Assembly: GCF_900155395.1 (NCBI RefSeq)
Contig: NZ_LT699726.1
Span: 124,001 to 188,000, forward strand
Source of the DNA: Merdibacter massiliensis
GTDB lineage: Bacteria; Bacillota_I; Bacilli_A; Erysipelotrichales; Erysipelotrichaceae
DNA: 64,000 nt
Reading direction: 5' to 3'
Made by a program: the position numbers and the translations under genes. Below the pieces are notes generated by a model that saw only the letters and a program-made list of their open reading frames with translations, was not told the DNA's origin and made no database searches. Shown one piece after another: positions 28,938-53,190 of the stretch (its first letter is position 1; each line of letters starts with the position of its first letter).

Positions 28938-30173
28938 TTATGCACTTACAGAATCCAATATTTGTTTCATTCGTTTTGCTAAACCATAGCATTTTTTAAC
29001 TGGCAATGAACAAACAGCAACACGGATTCCTTTATTCACTTTTACCGTGTAGATATGTTCTTTCATCATTGCTTCATGAAAACGGTCGCGCAATGCATTA
29101 TCTTCCACTTTCAAAGTAACAAAGAAACCTTCTTTATAAGGATAATACGCCAGTCCGCATGCATCTGCTTCTTTGGTTAAGATCTCGCTTCTTTCTTTTA
29201 ACAATTTTACATAAGTATCTTTTTCCGTCTCGTATGCGTCCTGTTTCTTCGTAATTACCGTAACAAAGTTTTCCATTGCAGCATTGTTTACGTTTGACCA
29301 GGTCGCACGTGCTGCCTTTTCAAAAACGATTTCTACTTCACGTACGCTTTCCTGCTTTTGCGCTAATAAGATAGCAGCTCCGCAACGCATTCCATAAGAA
29401 GTTAATGATTTTGAAATACTGAATGCAATAATTACAAATACGTTTTCAGAGATATTGTCGAATTTACGGATATAGTCTCGTGCTGCTTTTCCCCGGTAAG
29501 CAAAATCAATATAAGCAATATCATTTAACAAGACGACAGGACCTTGTTTTCCAAGTTCATTCAAAACAGCAATGACCGCATCCCATTCTTCTTCGCTTAA
29601 AGAATAGCCTGTTGGATTATGACAAGGATCATTTAAAACAACGACTACTTTCTTTTGCTGCGCCATTACTTCCTCACAAACTTGTTTAAATGAATTGATA
29701 TTAAATTTATCTCCTTCAAACAATGAATAAGATCTTGTTTTTAGATTGTCCATTGTTGCCATCAAATTATAAGAGCCCCAACAGATTTCAGGAAGAATGA
29801 CAGTTTCTCCTTCATCTAACATTTCAGAAATCGTAATACTTACAGCGCCTGTTCCGCCAGGAGTTGCAATGACACTATGTGCCAGCTTGCTGCGATCTCC
29901 TACGACCCATTGGTAAACATATTCACGGTAATTTGGATTTCCGGTAAAACTGCCTGCATACGCAGCCATTACTTCATTCGGCAATTCTTTCAATGTATTG
30001 AATACACTGTCAAAAGCGACGATCTTGCCATTTTCATCATATAATGATCCTATCGTAGCATCCGCTACCTGATCATCGCCTAATTCTTCCTTTGCTTCCT
30101 TTGCCTTTGCTACAACAGCAAATACCGTATCCACAATTGGATTTAAATCTACTTGATCCTTAACAAATCTCAT
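28938..30173 (-). CDS. Aromatic-type class I/II aminotransferase
   Basis: A 411-residue PLP enzyme of fold type I. The PLP-binding Lys is in FSISKSLTSYGMRCG. Other family motifs are PGGTGAVS, NDPCHNPTGYSLS and LNDIAYIDFAY. Its start overlaps the pheA stop by 4 bases (ATGA), so it is translated together with the prephenate dehydratase. That makes transamination of phenylpyruvate and hydroxyphenylpyruvate to Phe and Tyr its likely job. Specificity is inferred from context. Confidence 0.88.
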   Translation of the reverse strand: MRFVKDQVDLNPIVDTVFAVVAKAKEAKEELGDDQVADATIGSLYDENGKIVAFDSVFNTLKELPNEVMAAYAGSFTGNPNYREYVYQWVVGDRSKLAHSVIATPGGTGAVSITISEMLDEGETVILPEICWGSYNLMATMDNLKTRSYSLFEGDKFNINSFKQVCEEVMAQQKKVVVVLNDPCHNPTGYSLSEEEWDAVIAVLNELGKQGPVVLLNDIAYIDFAYRGKAARDYIRKFDNISENVFVIIAFSISKSLTSYGMRCGAAILLAQKQESVREVEIVFEKAARATWSNVNNAAMENFVTVITKKQDAYETEKDTYVKLLKERSEILTKEADACGLAYYPYKEGFFVTLKVEDNALRDRFHEAMMKEHIYTVKVNKGIRVAVCSLPVKKCYGLAKRMKQILDSVSA

Positions 30174-31258
30174 GCTGTTTCCTCACTTTCCTTTCGATCA
30201 TAAACGCCAATGATCTTTACCATGGCACAAACTTTCTTCATATCTTCTAACAGCAATTTTGCTTCTTTGCTGTTGATATGTCCTACGACTTCACTGTAAA
30301 AATAATACGCCCAAGGCTGATCATGCAAAGAACGTGATTTAATGCTTTCTAAATTCATTCCATGACGAGCCATCATTTCCATTACCTGCATCAAGGCTCC
30401 TGTTTCGTGTTTCACTGTAAATAATAAACTAAACCGATTGCCATCTTCTTGTGCTGTATTTGCAATAACAATAAATCGTGTCGTATTTTGTGTAGATGTA
30501 TTGATATTTTTTGCTAATACTTTTAAGCCATACAAATCAGCAGTTTCTATGGAAGCAATTGCCGCTTTGCTTACATCTTGCTGTTCTGCAACATATTTTG
30601 CAGCTAATGCGGTATTTCCATATGGTACTAGCTCATACCCTCTGCCTTGTAAAAACAAAGAACATTGTGCCAATCCCTGCGGATGAGAGTATACTTGTTT
30701 GATGTCTTTCAGCTGCGCATTTGGCAATCCTAATAGATTTTGATTGATCTTTAGATCATACATGCCTACGATGCTGACATCATATTGCAATAACAGATCT
30801 AGCATATCGCCGACTTCTCCCGTATATGAGTTTTCAAACGGAATCACTCCATATGTTACATCGCCATTGATCACTGCCTGGAACACTTCTTCAAATGTCG
30901 CATAATTGCGCAATTCGCTTTGTTCAAAGATCTTCATTGCTGCAATATGCGAAAAAGCACCTAATGCGCCTCCATAACCAACGACATTTTCATTTAAGAT
31001 CCGCTTTTGATATTTACGGCTGATTGCCATGACATCTTCAATAAATTGACGATAACTCTGCAAATAGCGCGCATCTTTGATCAATTTCGAATTGCGTTCG
31101 ATCACAGCTTCTTCTCGTGATCGATCCAATACCGGCATCTGATGCTCTTTTTTATATTGGATGACATCTTCTACTGTTTTCATTCTTTGTTCAAAAAGCT
31201 CAGCCATCTGTTCATCAATTGCATTGATTCTTTTTCTTGCGTCCTCTAACATGCTCAT
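30170..31258 (-). CDS. pheA: Bifunctional chorismate mutase / prephenate dehydratase
   Basis: A 362-residue P-protein that turns chorismate into phenylpyruvate. Residues 1-85 are an AroQ chorismate mutase helix bundle (LEDARKRINAIDEQMAELFE). Residues about 95-270 are the prephenate dehydratase, with the catalytic-site NTTRFIV. Residues about 280-355 are an ACT domain with the Phe-binding ESIKSRS motif, which predicts feedback control by Phe. ATG 31258 follows AAGGTGATT; a TATAAT box lies at 31274-31279 on the minus strand. Divergent from the aroB operon. Confidence 0.94.
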   Translation of the reverse strand: MSMLEDARKRINAIDEQMAELFEQRMKTVEDVIQYKKEHQMPVLDRSREEAVIERNSKLIKDARYLQSYRQFIEDVMAISRKYQKRILNENVVGYGGALGAFSHIAAMKIFEQSELRNYATFEEVFQAVINGDVTYGVIPFENSYTGEVGDMLDLLLQYDVSIVGMYDLKINQNLLGLPNAQLKDIKQVYSHPQGLAQCSLFLQGRGYELVPYGNTALAAKYVAEQQDVSKAAIASIETADLYGLKVLAKNINTSTQNTTRFIVIANTAQEDGNRFSLLFTVKHETGALMQVMEMMARHGMNLESIKSRSLHDQPWAYYFYSEVVGHINSKEAKLLLEDMKKVCAMVKIIGVYDRKESEETA

Positions 31259-31390
31259 ACAATCACCTTTTTTATTATACACTATTCTTTTCTATTTCTG
31301 ATGTGGAATCGTCAAATACTTCACTTGTTTTTATATTTATGTAACAAAATAGTACGTTTTCAGAAATTTTTAATTATTTTTTCATAATTA

Positions 31391-31429
31391 GTTGCAATCT
31401 TGCTTTCATTATATTATGATAATTGCAAC
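31391..31429 (+). promoter_or_regulatory. Promoter and dyad operator of the aroB operon
   Basis: -35 TTGCAA (31392-31397) and -10 TATGAT (31415-31420) are 17 bases apart, so transcription should start near 31427. An 8-bp dyad, GTTGCAAT at 31391-31398 and ATTGCAAC at 31422-31429, brackets the promoter. One arm covers the -35 and the other the start site, as expected for a repressor operator. The protein that binds is unknown. Confidence 0.65.
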
Positions 31430-31441
31430 GGAGTGATCATT

Positions 31442-31480
31442 ATGCATACTTCTAAGTTTTATTACTTTTATTACGAATAG
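31442..31480 (+). CDS. Phe/Tyr leader peptide of the aroB operon
   Basis: A 12-codon open frame reading MHTSKFYYFYYE, then TAG. It has a good ribosome site (GGAGTG, six bases before ATG). Six consecutive codons (31457-31474) specify Phe-Tyr-Tyr-Phe-Tyr-Tyr, the end products of the pathway encoded downstream. A perfect hairpin begins at the base after the stop codon and an intrinsic terminator follows. This is the classical design for attenuation by ribosome stalling, as in enteric pheA and trp leaders, but with mixed Phe and Tyr codons. Such leaders are uncommon in Firmicutes, where T-boxes usually do this job. Confidence 0.85.
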   Translation: MHTSKFYYFYYE

Positions 31481-31567
31481 TCATCATAAAGCCATGAATG
31501 AAATGGTTGTTTTTGCTTTATGATGAAATACAGAGCATCTACTGAATAGTTGATGCTCTTTTGTTTC
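31481..31567 (+). promoter_or_regulatory. Attenuator hairpins of the aroB operon
   Basis: Region 1 (31481-31492, TCATCATAAAGC) pairs perfectly with region 2 (31515-31526, GCTTTATGATGA). Region 3 (31532-31539, AGAGCATC) pairs with region 4 (31552-31559, GATGCTCT), followed by TTTGTTT: a terminator. Region 2 can instead pair with region 3 through TGCTTT (31514-31519) and AGAGCA (31532-31537), six pairs with one G-U, which would break the terminator. A ribosome stalled on the Phe/Tyr codons would cover region 1 and favour this antiterminator. The mechanism is inferred; the pairings are visible. Confidence 0.8.
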
Positions 31568-31583
31568 AGAGAGGGGTCATAAG

Positions 31584-32588
31584 ATGAAACTACATGTAAA
31601 TTTAAAAGAACGCGGATATGATATTGTACTGCAACGCGGTATCCTGCATCAAATTACAGAGGAAATCGATGTTGATCGAAATGTATTGCTGGTCAGCGAC
31701 AGCAATGTACCAGCAAAATGGATCGATATCGTCCAACAGCAATGTCCGCACTGTGTGGTAAAAATCGTAAATTCTGGAGAAGAATCAAAAAGTTTTGCTG
31801 TTTGGGAAGATTTATTGACCTGCATGCTGCAGCATCATTTTTTACGAAGCGATCTGGTTATTGCACTAGGCGGCGGTGTCGTAGGCGATCTTGCCGGATT
31901 TGCAGCAGCCTGCTATATGCGCGGCATTGATTTTGTCAACATTCCTACTACTACTCTTGCACAGATTGACTCGAGCATTGGCGGAAAAACCGCTATCAAT
32001 GCCGGCGGCATCAAGAATAATATCGGTGCTTTTTATCAGCCAAAAAAAGTGTTGATCGATTTTGACGTGTTAAGTACTCTGCCGCATCGCCATTACATCA
32101 ACGGTTTGATCGAAGCATTAAAGGCCGGTTTGATTTATGATCCCGCTTTATTTGCATTATTTGAAACAAACGATATCGATGCACATCTTGAAGAAATCAT
32201 TTACCGCTCGCTCTGCATGAAAAAAGATGTCGTAGAACAAGACGAGAAAGAAACGGGATTACGCAAGATCTTAAATTTTGGCCATACTATCGGCCATGCA
32301 ATCGAAAGTTATTATCACTTGGAAGAATACTTGCATGGGGAATGTGTCGGCATGGGCATGTTATACTTCATCAATGATCCTCAATTAAAGCAAAGAACGA
32401 TTGCCGTATTGGAAAAAATGGGTGCACCCATTGATGCTCCCTATGACAAAGAAGAAGTCTATCAGCGTTTGTTAGCAGACAAAAAAGCAACACATGACGG
32501 AATTACGATCGTTGAGGTCAATACATTAGGAAAAGCTGATCTAAAGAAGATCTCATACGAAGAAATAAAAGAAAAACTGAGGGGATAA
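31584..32588 (+). CDS. aroB: 3-Dehydroquinate synthase
   Basis: A 334-residue NAD+-dependent enzyme, second step of the shikimate pathway, closing DAHP into 3-dehydroquinate. Motifs: ALGGGVVGDLAGFAAACYMRG (NAD and metal region), PTTTLAQIDSSIGGKTAIN, and the metal-binding NFGHTIGHAIES. At 334 residues it is a little shorter than the usual 350-360. ATG 31584 follows AGAGAGGGG. First structural gene of aroB-aroC-aroA-tyrA, behind the Phe/Tyr attenuator. Confidence 0.95.
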   Translation: MKLHVNLKERGYDIVLQRGILHQITEEIDVDRNVLLVSDSNVPAKWIDIVQQQCPHCVVKIVNSGEESKSFAVWEDLLTCMLQHHFLRSDLVIALGGGVVGDLAGFAAACYMRGIDFVNIPTTTLAQIDSSIGGKTAINAGGIKNNIGAFYQPKKVLIDFDVLSTLPHRHYINGLIEALKAGLIYDPALFALFETNDIDAHLEEIIYRSLCMKKDVVEQDEKETGLRKILNFGHTIGHAIESYYHLEEYLHGECVGMGMLYFINDPQLKQRTIAVLEKMGAPIDAPYDKEEVYQRLLADKKATHDGITIVEVNTLGKADLKKISYEEIKEKLRG

Positions 32589-32592
32589 GCAT

Positions 32593-33702
32593 ATGAAAAA
32601 TAGTTTTGGGAATACATTCACGATTTCGATATTTGGCGAGAGTCACGGAGAGGCAATCGGTGTCGTCATTGATGGTTTGGCTGCCGGTATCGCATTAAAT
32701 CTGGACTATATCAGACAACGCATGTCACAAAGACAGGCAAAAGGACGCATCTCTACTCAGCGTCATGAACCCGATGAAATTCAGATCATCAGCGGGTGGT
32801 TTGAAGGACACACAACTGGTACCCCTCTTACCATCTTGATCCAAAATACCAATACACGCAGCAAAGATTATGAAAAGACACGTTATCGTCTCCGTCCTTC
32901 TCATGCAGATTACACTGCATTTGCGAAATACGACGGATATCAAGACTTTCGCGGAGGAGGTCATTTCAGCGGTCGCTTGACAGCGCCATTAGTAGCTGCC
33001 GGAGCCATTGCCCAACAGATCTTAGAACAGAAAGGCATCTATATCGGTTCACACATCCTGCATTGTCATGGTGCCTCTGATATTGCCTTTTCTCAGGAAG
33101 AAACCATACTCAAAGAACAGATCTGCAAATTAAATAACGAAGATTTTCCCGTCTTAGACGAGGAATCTGCAAAAAACATCTATGCCATCATGGAAGAAGC
33201 CGCCAACCAGGGAGACAGTGTAGGAGGCATCATCGAAACTGCTGTTGCCGGCTTCCCCAGCGGTATCGGTGAACCGTTTTTCGATTCCATAGAAAGTGTA
33301 TTAAGTCATCTGCTTTTCAGCGTTCCTGCTGTGAAAGGAGTCCAATTCGGTTTAGGATTTGGCTTTAGCGATCTATATGGTTCACAAGCAAATGATCCTT
33401 TCTATTATAAGGATGGAAAAATCAAAACAAAAACCAACCATAACGGAGGCATCAATGGAGGTATCTCCAACGGCATGCCAATCGTATTGCAAAGCGTAGT
33501 AAAACCGACTGCTTCTATTTATAAAGAGCAGGATACCGTAGATTATCAGAGCAAAGAAGCAGTAAAACTGCAAATTCAGGGCCGCCATGATCCGGCAATC
33601 CTGCATCGTGCCAGAGTTGTGATCGACAGTGTCTGTGCCATCGGCCTGCTGGATCTATATTGTACAAATATGGCCACGAAATGTATGAAGGAGGAACATT
33701 GA
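32593..33702 (+). CDS. aroC: Chorismate synthase
   Basis: A 369-residue FMN-dependent lyase that converts EPSP to chorismate. The three family signatures are visible: GESHGEAIGVVIDG near the N terminus, then RPSHADYTAFAKY with FRGGGHFSGRLTA around residues 98-135, and RHDPAILHRARVV near the C terminus. Length is typical. It begins 4 bases after aroB with its own AGGGGA site. Confidence 0.96.
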   Translation: MKNSFGNTFTISIFGESHGEAIGVVIDGLAAGIALNLDYIRQRMSQRQAKGRISTQRHEPDEIQIISGWFEGHTTGTPLTILIQNTNTRSKDYEKTRYRLRPSHADYTAFAKYDGYQDFRGGGHFSGRLTAPLVAAGAIAQQILEQKGIYIGSHILHCHGASDIAFSQEETILKEQICKLNNEDFPVLDEESAKNIYAIMEEAANQGDSVGGIIETAVAGFPSGIGEPFFDSIESVLSHLLFSVPAVKGVQFGLGFGFSDLYGSQANDPFYYKDGKIKTKTNHNGGINGGISNGMPIVLQSVVKPTASIYKEQDTVDYQSKEAVKLQIQGRHDPAILHRARVVIDSVCAIGLLDLYCTNMATKCMKEEH

Positions 33703-33703
33703 T

Positions 33704-34972
33704 ATGATAGCGAAGATTGCTCCCTCGCTTTGTCAAGGAACATTGCATATACCGCCCAGCAAAAGCATGGCACACCGTGCGATCATTGCAGCTGCATTAG
33801 CAGATGGAACATCCCGTATCACAAATGTCGATTTTAGTGACGATATTCTCGCCACGATCGAAGGCATGCGCCAACTTGGCGCAGATATCACTATCGAGGA
33901 AGACTGTGTAACGGTAAAAGGGATTTCTGATTTTCAGCATTTGCATTCGCACGAAATTTTTTGTAATGAATCCGGTTCTACGCTTCGTTTCTTTATTCCG
34001 ATTTTCTCTCTATGTGGCGAGGCAATTTCTTTTACTGGAAAAGGGCGCCTGTTACAACGCCCGCAAACCGTATATGAATCTATTTTTCATGCACAAAATC
34101 TTCTATTTGAACATTCTCATGATGCGATCCAAATGCAGGGTACACTCAAAGCTGGGGAATATGAAATTGCCGGAAATATATCTTCCCAATTTATTACCGG
34201 TTTATTATTTGCACTTCCTTTGTTAAAAGGAGATTCTATCATTCATATCGCTCCCCCGTTTGAATCACGCTCTTACATCGATCTAACGTTGCAAATGTTA
34301 CGCAATTTCCATATTGAGATCCATTTCTTGGATGAATTAACGATACAGATCAAAGGAGGACAAAAATATCAGCCAAAAGATGTCCGCATTGAAGGAGACT
34401 ACTCGCAATTGGCATTCTTTGCCGTGCTGGCTGCGATACAAGGCGATATTACGATCACGGGCATTTCCTTGAACAGTCAGCAGGGTGATCGTCAGATTTT
34501 ATCGATCTTAAAAGATTTCGGAACATCCATCGAAGCAGTCGATCAAGGAATTATCGTACATAAAGGGCATTTAAAAGGTTGTGAAATCGATTTAAATAAT
34601 TGCCCGGATCTTGGTCCGATCGTTTTTGTGCTGGCAGCCATGGCCGAAGGTCAGACACACATTTATAATGCCGGCCGTCTGCGCATCAAAGAAAGCGATC
34701 GAATTGCCGCCATGGAAGAAGAACTTCGAAAATTTCAAGTACAAATCCGATCAAATGAAGAAGAAATATGGATTGAAGGAAATCCAAAAGGATATACTTG
34801 TGATTCCACCCTGCAAGCTCACAACGATCATCGAATCGTGATGGCAATGACGATCATGACGTTGGTCAATCACAGCGTATGCTGCATAGAGGGAGCACAA
34901 GCGATACGAAAATCATACCCGTCCTTTTTTGAGGATGTACAGAAAATCAAAGGAAAGGTGGAATTGTCATGA
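33704..34972 (+). CDS. aroA: 3-Phosphoshikimate 1-carboxyvinyltransferase (EPSP synthase)
   Basis: A 422-residue enzyme that joins PEP to shikimate-3-phosphate. Motifs: PPSKSMAHRAIIAAALA (PEP and shikimate site), CNESGSTLRFFIPI, GRLLQRPQTVYE and LRIKESDRIAAMEEEL. The glyphosate-contact loop reads NESGSTLR rather than the enteric NAGTAMR, so it belongs to the divergent Gram-positive group; drug response cannot be read directly. The gene starts one base after the aroC stop and overlaps tyrA by 4 bases. Confidence 0.95.
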   Translation: MIAKIAPSLCQGTLHIPPSKSMAHRAIIAAALADGTSRITNVDFSDDILATIEGMRQLGADITIEEDCVTVKGISDFQHLHSHEIFCNESGSTLRFFIPIFSLCGEAISFTGKGRLLQRPQTVYESIFHAQNLLFEHSHDAIQMQGTLKAGEYEIAGNISSQFITGLLFALPLLKGDSIIHIAPPFESRSYIDLTLQMLRNFHIEIHFLDELTIQIKGGQKYQPKDVRIEGDYSQLAFFAVLAAIQGDITITGISLNSQQGDRQILSILKDFGTSIEAVDQGIIVHKGHLKGCEIDLNNCPDLGPIVFVLAAMAEGQTHIYNAGRLRIKESDRIAAMEEELRKFQVQIRSNEEEIWIEGNPKGYTCDSTLQAHNDHRIVMAMTIMTLVNHSVCCIEGAQAIRKSYPSFFEDVQKIKGKVELS

Positions 34973-35823
34973 TTACAAAAGATACAACATTTGTTATCGT
35001 TGGTTTAGGACTTCTCGGCGGAAGTTATGCAATGGGATTAAAAGAAGCCGGCTATCAAGTACTTGGAGTGGCACGACGCCAGGAAACGATAGATTATGCA
35101 CTGGAACATGGATTGATCGATGAAGGAACTCTAGACCCAGAGAAATTTTTACCTCGTGCAGATATTGTTGTCTTTGCACTGTATCCAACCATCATGATCC
35201 ACTGGATACAAGAACATCAGCATGCCTTTCATCCAAGAACCTTATTAACTGATGTAAGCGGCGTTAAAGTAAATGTTGCTGACAAGGTCCAATCTTTCTT
35301 GCGGGAAGACGTCGAATTTATTGCAGCCCATCCTATGGCAGGCAGAGAAACAAGCGGTATTGAATATGCAAATACCGAGATGTTCAAAGATGCCAATTAC
35401 ATTATCGTTCCTACTGAAAAAAATACAGAAGAAGCGGTAGAGACTTCCCGTCAATTAGCAAACATCCTGCATTTTCATCATATTGCAACTTTAAGCATGA
35501 AAGAACATGACGAGATGATCGGATTTCTTTCACAATTAACACATGTGATTGCCGTGTCCTTGATGAATACACACGATAACTCGCATCTGGTGGAATATAC
35601 AGGAGATTCTTTCCGTGACCTCACGCGCATTGCCAAAATAAACGAAACCATGTGGAGCGAATTGTTTCTGCTGAATAAAAAGATCTTATTATCTGAAATC
35701 GATGCATTTGCCAAAGAACTAAAACATTTCAGAAATACCCTTGCAGCAGAAGATACAGAAGAAATGAAGCGTCTGTTCATTCAATCGACAAACAGACGGA
35801 AAAAGTTTGATAAATTAAAATAA
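34969..35823 (+). CDS. tyrA: Prephenate dehydrogenase
   Basis: A 284-residue NAD-dependent enzyme that turns prephenate into 4-hydroxyphenylpyruvate for Tyr. A Rossmann motif, VIVGLGLLGGSYAMGLKEAG, is at residues 9-28. VDV-type positions are followed by TDVSGVK, AAHPMAGRETSG (the catalytic His) and FLSQLTHVIA. There is no C-terminal ACT domain, unlike B. subtilis TyrA, so feedback control by Tyr may act at the attenuator rather than the enzyme. Last gene of the operon, with a terminator. Confidence 0.93.
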   Translation: MITKDTTFVIVGLGLLGGSYAMGLKEAGYQVLGVARRQETIDYALEHGLIDEGTLDPEKFLPRADIVVFALYPTIMIHWIQEHQHAFHPRTLLTDVSGVKVNVADKVQSFLREDVEFIAAHPMAGRETSGIEYANTEMFKDANYIIVPTEKNTEEAVETSRQLANILHFHHIATLSMKEHDEMIGFLSQLTHVIAVSLMNTHDNSHLVEYTGDSFRDLTRIAKINETMWSELFLLNKKILLSEIDAFAKELKHFRNTLAAEDTEEMKRLFIQSTNRRKKFDKLK

Positions 35824-52942: not shown

Positions 52943-53190
52943 AAAAAAAACTTTCATCCAAAGGACGAAAGTATCGTGGTTCCACCTTTTTTTACTGTTT
53001 TCTCACGAAAACAGCCTCTATGAGTATTTGCATACTGCACATGATAACGGATGCTGCCCCGTTGAAAGCTACTGTTCGTTCACTTTCACAACTCCAAGGT
53101 GTGTTCGCAGGATTCCTATATTCTTTTCCACCAAACAAGAACTCTCTATCATATTCCTCTCTGTTACTATTCCTCTTCTTCGTTTTATAT
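52943..53190 (-). promoter_or_regulatory. T-box riboswitch of the his operon (His specifier)
   Basis: The leader of hisZ carries the T-box core AGGTGGAACCACG (52975-52987) and an intrinsic terminator at 52950-52972 with stem ACTTTCGTCC / GGATGAAAGT and T8 tail. The 5' part can form a long Stem I. Within it the run GAA-CAC-A has CAC (53101-53103), a His codon, at the specifier position. Uncharged tRNA-His would bind both sites and switch off the terminator, so the operon is on when histidine is short. Confidence 0.92.

Follow-up and report, generated by a model that had tools for sequence, protein, structure and literature searches.

A predicted Phe/Tyr leader-peptide attenuator upstream of the aro operon of Merdibacter massiliensis and its relatives in the Erysipelotrichaceae

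T-boxes are usually taken to be the amino-acid sensors of Firmicutes, and the E. coli pheA leader senses Phe only. Leader-peptide attenuation in Firmicutes is known or has been proposed for his and ilv (PMC2965389, PMC9413887, PMC5794164), and the His attenuators described from Erysipelotrichales and other Firmicutes are confined in scope to his operons (PMC9413887). A further candidate, uORFC-13-1, comprises 24 sequences from Acholeplasma and environmental DNA only, with at least one Phe codon (PMC8632094). Here we analyzed a 64,000-nucleotide stretch of the M. massiliensis genome (contig NZ_LT699726.1, positions 124,001 to 188,000; hereafter the window), in which a sequence-only reading had placed a mixed Phe/Tyr leader-peptide attenuator in front of a Firmicute aro operon. 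Sequence comparison supports this class of mechanism, and we consider it very probable that the leader works as a ribosome-mediated transcription attenuator of aroB-aroC-aroA-tyrA, with charged tRNA-Phe and tRNA-Tyr as the sensed species. The locus resembles the E. coli pheA leader (Rfam RF01859) in its run of aromatic codons, its predicted alternative stems and its intrinsic terminator. It differs from that leader in mixing Phe with Tyr codons and in carrying its first stem behind the stop codon, and RF01859 gave no match at the window leader up to E=1.

The operon consists of aroB (3-dehydroquinate synthase, 31584-32588), aroC (chorismate synthase, 32593-33702), aroA (EPSP synthase, 33704-34972) and tyrA (prephenate dehydrogenase, 34969-35823), all on the plus strand. 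The first three scored above their cut-offs (TIGR01357, TIGR00033 and TIGR01356, respectively) and tyrA was assigned from its best NCBIfam hits, which lie below the equivalog cut-offs, in agreement with the earlier statement that these genes make chorismate and Tyr. The AroB protein is 82% identical to that of the congener Candidatus Merdibacter merdigallinarum. On the other side of the leader from aroB, a gene for a chorismate mutase/prephenate dehydratase is transcribed divergently (30170-31282, minus strand). A putative sigma-A promoter, TTGCAA-17-TATGAT (31392-31420, plus strand), would set the transcription start near 31427; it fits as a consensus match only, and sigma-A-like matches of this sort often arise by chance (four found, 4.1 expected).

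On the plus strand, the leader ORF, MHTSKFYYFYYE followed by a stop codon (31442-31480), has 12 codons, among them Phe TTT TTT and Tyr TAT TAC TAT TAC, and is preceded by a Shine-Dalgarno (SD) sequence GGAG (31430-31433), so that the short frame with a good ribosome site noticed earlier is indeed present. Directly behind the stop codon, arm A, TCATCATAAAGC (31481-31492), forms the 5' strand of a stem whose 3' strand, arm B, GCTTTATGATGA (31515-31526), is its perfect complement over 12 bp, as had been reported; the two arms co-vary. Between them lies an inner hairpin, P0 (AGCCAT...ATGGTT, 31490-31508), which we propose as an RNA polymerase pause hairpin, with TTGTTT directly behind it (31507-31512). 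The intrinsic terminator (31532-31567) is made of a stem at 31532-31559 and a T-rich tail, again as first described. When folded against shuffles, the post-stop hairpin reached -15.5 kcal/mol (z -3.7) and the terminator -13.5 kcal/mol (z -4.0), and together they reached -29.8 kcal/mol (z -4.7), a value matched by none of 200 shuffles. The window leader itself has no match among Rfam families. A T-box identity was rejected, as the T-box covariance model has no match at the leader, which bears out the earlier failure to see one there. The same model does find a T-box at 52958-53189 of the window (minus strand, 126.7 bits), upstream of an operon with hisZ-like, hisG-like and hisD-like ORFs. Within one window, His would thus be sensed by a T-box and Phe/Tyr by a leader peptide, and in other Bacilli a His leader peptide is found on hisZ. 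In a sister family, a T-box (L027:153-403) stands in place of the leader peptide on an aro operon (DAHP synthase-aroB).

A search for AroB in 273 Erysipelotrichaceae genomes returned 136 hits, and 104 upstream regions were long enough to be scored with an automatic test, namely an ATG-initiated ORF ending in a Phe/Tyr cluster and then a terminator. Forty-six of the 104 regions passed, as compared with a mean of 0.05 for dinucleotide shuffles and none for the reverse strand. The 56 leaders that we delimited by hand contain 113 Phe, 180 Tyr and 0 Trp codons, and an equivalent of the intrinsic terminator was present in all 53 scanned leaders, the window's own counted in. The leader peptides are diverse in sequence (MHNKGYYYYR, MLFNRYYYS, MNTNLFSYFYFYF, MKTVKYYYYYYFR) and keep approximately three to six aromatic codons, which mostly end one to three codons ahead of the stop. 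The stop codons are mostly TAG. About half of the family aroB genes have no leader, several of these genes being located inside other operons. Searching genome-wide for patterns of aromatic codons in a run returned background only. The sequence-only reading had staked its case on relatives keeping the aromatic codons and the stems; the codons and both stems are conserved and co-varying. This comparison indicates that the Phe/Tyr leader device is real and conserved in dozens of related species, and since it is kept in so many relatives, the speed at which the ribosome reads the Phe/Tyr codons probably decides the switching of the operon.

Three scaffolds, termed classes A, B and C, were distinguished among the leaders. 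In class A, to which the window leader belongs, and in class B, the stop codon is immediately followed by a long stem, A:B, that encloses P0, here with a conserved RCCA...UGG, and a T-run behind it; the terminator comes next. The spacer between arm B and the terminator is short in most leaders. In class C, P0 is GGGC...GCCC and a second helix, b:c, joins AGAUAA-UGCC with GGCAUUAUCU; the terminator loop repeats the b sequence, so that arm c is able to pair with either b or the terminator. Class C leader ORFs frequently end in AGA plus a TAG or TAA stop (AGATAR), a sequence that duplicates arm b and is able to base-pair with arm c. Over the class A stem and terminator, nine of 18 counted pairs were changed on both sides, with a covariation score of 0.375, whereas shuffles gave 0.202 and slid controls no more than 0.116; for the A:B helix alone, both-side changes affected seven of 10 counted pairs. 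For class C, b:c and c:terminator were both paired in 84% of cells, as compared with 30-50% when slid, and the shuffle controls also favour these two helices, more modestly.

A class A covariance model (R1), covering the post-stop RNA with the ORF represented by its stop codon only, was run over 268 family genomes, and a class C model (R2) over 218 genomes of the taxonomic class. Besides the leaders of aroB, R1 matched sets of sites before aroE and before DAHP synthase, and at aroB, aroE and DAHP synthase alike a Phe/Tyr-rich ORF ends where the model starts. The genome of the window has a second leader of its own, MHMILNSSYYFYF plus stop codon, before aroE (G000:C9:15327-15424, minus strand, locus L165). 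In other families, the R2 matches carry His-rich ORFs (VHHHHKTGFDI and QVHHHW, each followed by a stop codon), and the next gene is hisZ in three of the four His-leader loci, the HisZ proteins scoring below the equivalog cut-off. Because His-rich leaders before hisZ were found with the model of a sister scaffold, the leader codons can be said to match the operon, and sequence can offer no stronger evidence for ribosome-mediated attenuation than codons that change with the operon while the scaffold stays recognisable. Tyr/Phe leaders were also found before genes for substrate-binding proteins of amino-acid ABC transporters, one within the family (G240, L214) and one outside (G304, L131), the latter protein being of the TrpX type. 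Two loci of another family (L132 and L134) have Tyr/Phe leaders, MNSTLTNLYDYSYYC and MNSNLTTRFYYSYYC, each with its stop codon, before a BrnQ-like transporter. At L219, a His leader on a class C scaffold, MKIQLQEQVHWHHHF plus stop codon, has a match to a group II intron immediately behind it in place of a his gene. Weak R1/R2 hits at L157, L158, L161, L162 and L224, as well as R2 hits in G216, G023, G031 and G207, were discarded as other terminators.

How the ribosome might govern these RNAs was examined with a simple thermodynamic model, in which approximately 13 nt are taken to be covered from the first base of the A-site codon, as standard toeprint distances suggest. When the A site is on one of the run codons of the window leader (codons 6 to 11), the leading edge lies between well upstream of arm A and about 4 nt into it, and these 4 nt are covered only from the last Tyr codon. 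A ribosome at the stop codon covers about 10 of the 12 nt of arm A. Nearly all leaders share this geometry, with arm A (or a) starting directly behind the stop codon. As arm A adjoins the stop codon, a ribosome stalled in the Phe/Tyr run would leave arm A free and only a ribosome at the stop codon or adjacent to it would hide it; with such post-stop arms, the RNA would read whether the ribosome has finished. The sequence-only reading had proposed the reverse, that stalling hides this first region, and this was not supported, given that the arm lies past the stop codon. In masked-ribosome folding of class A leaders, the 5' arm was engaged in A:B at 69-76% when the ribosome was stalled and at 4% when it was at the stop, where A:B was replaced by a helix between the SD/AUG region of the leader and the P0-3'/U-run strand (approximately 1.5 bp in the stalled state, 11 bp at the stop). 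In nested folding of classes A and B, it was the stalled state that left the 5' arm of the terminator freest, a result that at face value would imply the wrong polarity. No upstream helix with either terminator arm clearly exceeded swapped controls across the class A and B sets, so a conventional antiterminator finds no comparative support there.

For class C, the comparison supports such a helix. Its antiterminator reached -11.5 kcal/mol with each leader's own sequence and -9.0 kcal/mol when swapped (p=0.0002), the reversed decoy being not significant, and the 5' arm and loop of the terminator were paired upstream at 0.58-0.62 when the ribosome was stalled, 0.35 when it was at the stop and 0.40 in shuffled controls. 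In silico, the switch is clear for class C: stalling is predicted to favour the co-varying antiterminator, and reaching the stop codon to favour the terminator. With a stalled ribosome, a:b would form and leave c free to pair with the terminator; with the ribosome at the stop, a would be covered, b would take c and engagement of the terminator would drop. Arm c also pairs with the tail of the ORF (p=0.0002, own against swapped), which may represent a third, untranslated state. In class B, a pairing of the ORF with the 3' arm of the terminator that looked suggestive by eye was ruled out as not significant (p=0.09); a pairing of the ORF with the 5' arm was significant (p=0.003), without clear mechanistic meaning.

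Under the attenuator that we favour, RNA polymerase would make the leader and probably pause behind P0, at the NusG-type T-rich motif, while the ribosome reads the 12-codon ORF. With sufficient Phe and Tyr, the ribosome would get to the stop codon and cover arm A; with too little, it would stall in the Phe/Tyr run and arm A would stay free. The position of the ribosome would select one of two RNA forms, and on this choice would depend the action of the terminator ahead of aroB; the polarity that makes biological sense is termination when Phe and Tyr suffice. We infer the translation of the ORF, the pausing and the direction of the response; the comparison itself shows the conserved ORF with its aromatic codons, the stem, the terminator, the codon-matched sister leaders and the position-sensitive class C antiterminator. 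An ORF with codons for the end products was found, including at the aroE, DAHP-synthase and hisZ leaders, as was a terminator between ORF and first gene. A mutually exclusive antiterminator governed by the ribosome was found in silico in class C and was not found in class A of the window.

For class A, another arrangement may be considered, although we regard it as unlikely: the A:B stem, formed only on stalling, would make a pseudoknot in which the U-run bulge pairs with the A-rich start of the terminator (AAAAGC) and blocks it, and otherwise the SD/AUG region would pair with the P0-3'/U-run strand and stop further initiation. The latter pairing is stronger than its swapped controls in class A (-13.2 against -10.1 kcal/mol, p=0.0002), the opposed behaviour of A:B (0.69-0.76 stalled, 0.04 at the stop) and of the initiation-region helix is as this arrangement would have it, and the short spacer between arm B and the terminator fits. 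However, the pairing of the U-run with the terminator has no comparative signal, several class B terminators are without an A-tract and the window leader itself forms the initiation-region pairing only weakly. Slightly less probable still is the textbook trp-type logic drawn in the sequence-only reading, in which stalling would put the ribosome over arm A, so that arm B could pair with the 5' arm of the terminator and the operon would be read on. It would be workable only if the ribosome lingered at the stop codon or on the sense codons just ahead of it; the aromatic runs are indeed located at the very end of the ORF, and engagement of the window's terminator 5' arm is 0.42 with arm A hidden at the stop against 0.29 at the last Tyr codon. 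Nevertheless, the distance from arm A is too great for most of the Phe/Tyr codons upstream of it, and the early codons of the run would be pointless. The competing TGCTTT/AGAGCA pairing put forward earlier is a true complementarity, but as an antiterminator of arm B with the terminator 5' arm it lacks comparative support (own -5.17, swapped -5.74 kcal/mol, p=0.97). The sequence-only reading was therefore partly supported, its observation being confirmed and its interpretation right in kind, with switch details that are either incorrect or unproven.

Could the ORF instead be incidental and the RNA a small-molecule riboswitch, the role suggested for the related trpB motif? RF04312, the trpB motif, has been called a strong riboswitch candidate (PMC11109978). 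It had no match at the window leader, class C relatives reached at most 49.7 bits against its gathering score of 59, and the searches of the class and phylum gave no match above cut-off, several hits being plain terminators (e.g., L133, L135 and L136). We consider a riboswitch very improbable because the ORF codons change with the operon, being Phe/Tyr at aro and His at hisZ, on a still recognisable scaffold, and in view of alignments with no conserved core resembling a ligand pocket. A second Rfam family, RF02863, matched above its cut-off (76.2 bits, cut-off 61) at L131:1469-1650, behind the ORF MKNINITSSNRSYFFSYFR with its stop codon and before the gene for the TrpX-type transporter. The "sRNA" thus has the look of a Phe/Tyr leader acting in cis, and Phe/Tyr may be what the "Trp" transporter carries. 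As matches to RF02863 and, below cut-off, to RF04312 lie behind Tyr/Phe-rich ORFs in relatives, both families may be attenuators. That the mini-ORF is a chance frame before a constitutive terminator is barely credible, for although AT-rich DNA readily yields TTT and TAT codons, 46 leaders stand against 0.05 expected and the same genome has a second one on aroE.

P0 followed by TTGTTT at 31507 corresponds to the consensus of NusG-dependent pausing, TTNTTT, with the spacing described for B. subtilis (PMC12288461), and the NusG of the window's genome carries the RNTP residues (N81/T82 type) of pause-promoting NusG. Hairpin, motif and a pause-type NusG thus come together at the window leader, as predicted for a NusG-dependent pause site. 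The window leader has an SD sequence of its own. In 17 of the 56 leaders, only 5-7 nt separate the end of a -10 box from the start codon (exactly 6 nt, with a spacer of 17, in 15 of them), as compared with 6% in shuffles, and from this spacing leaderless leader mRNAs are predicted. The arrangement of -35, 17-nt spacer, -10, 6 nt and ATG was seen upstream of aroB in G264, G268, G256, G259, G072 and others. A leaderless leader mRNA is known for S. meliloti trpL (PMC7298713).

These results suggest that the family as a whole keeps a Phe/Tyr leader-peptide regulon over its aroB, aroE and DAHP-synthase operons, the his operon in the same window being on a T-box. The scaffold is reused with matched codons, both for His and, before a TrpX-type transporter, for Phe/Tyr, which points to an attenuator role for two unexplained Rfam families, and post-stop stems together with leaderless leader ORFs point to a ribosome-position logic unlike that of trp, testable by simple reporters. 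More tentatively, a lineage of Bacillota might rely on interchangeable leader-peptide scaffolds of the post-stop-stem type for aromatic regulons and, in other families, for histidine ones, to which RF04312 and RF02863 would belong. The ribosome would be sensed by having finished and not by hiding a stem within the codons, the default without translation would be read-through, and some leaders would be leaderless, starting at their own first AUG.

Several described systems share parts of this design. Acholeplasma uORFC-13-1 also places a Phe-codon uORF and a terminator before an aro gene (PMC8632094), although the gene is a different one, aroF. Two uORF candidates proposed for shikimate genes have Phe and Tyr codons, as drawn in a figure (PMC6429828, Fig. 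6b). The attenuators of Erysipelotrichales (PMC9413887) work by leader peptide in the same order and sense His, whereas the window leader has Phe/Tyr codons; class C-like His leaders stand before hisZ here. The S. aureus ilv-leu attenuator peptide, which has genetic evidence, is likewise Firmicute leader-peptide attenuation (PMC5794164) but senses Leu/Ile on another scaffold. In the B. subtilis tlrB leader, a leader peptide is timed by a NusG pause hairpin (PMC6851288), but stalling is induced by antibiotics and not by amino-acid sensing. RF04312 and the Enterococcus sRNA 2410 (RF02863) have a hairpin and terminator like class C, but are annotated as a riboswitch candidate and an sRNA, and the matches to RF04312 lie below its gathering cut-off. 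Among open-access papers, we found none on aro leaders of Erysipelotrichaceae. The kind of regulation is known; its specificity for Phe/Tyr and its scaffolds are new.
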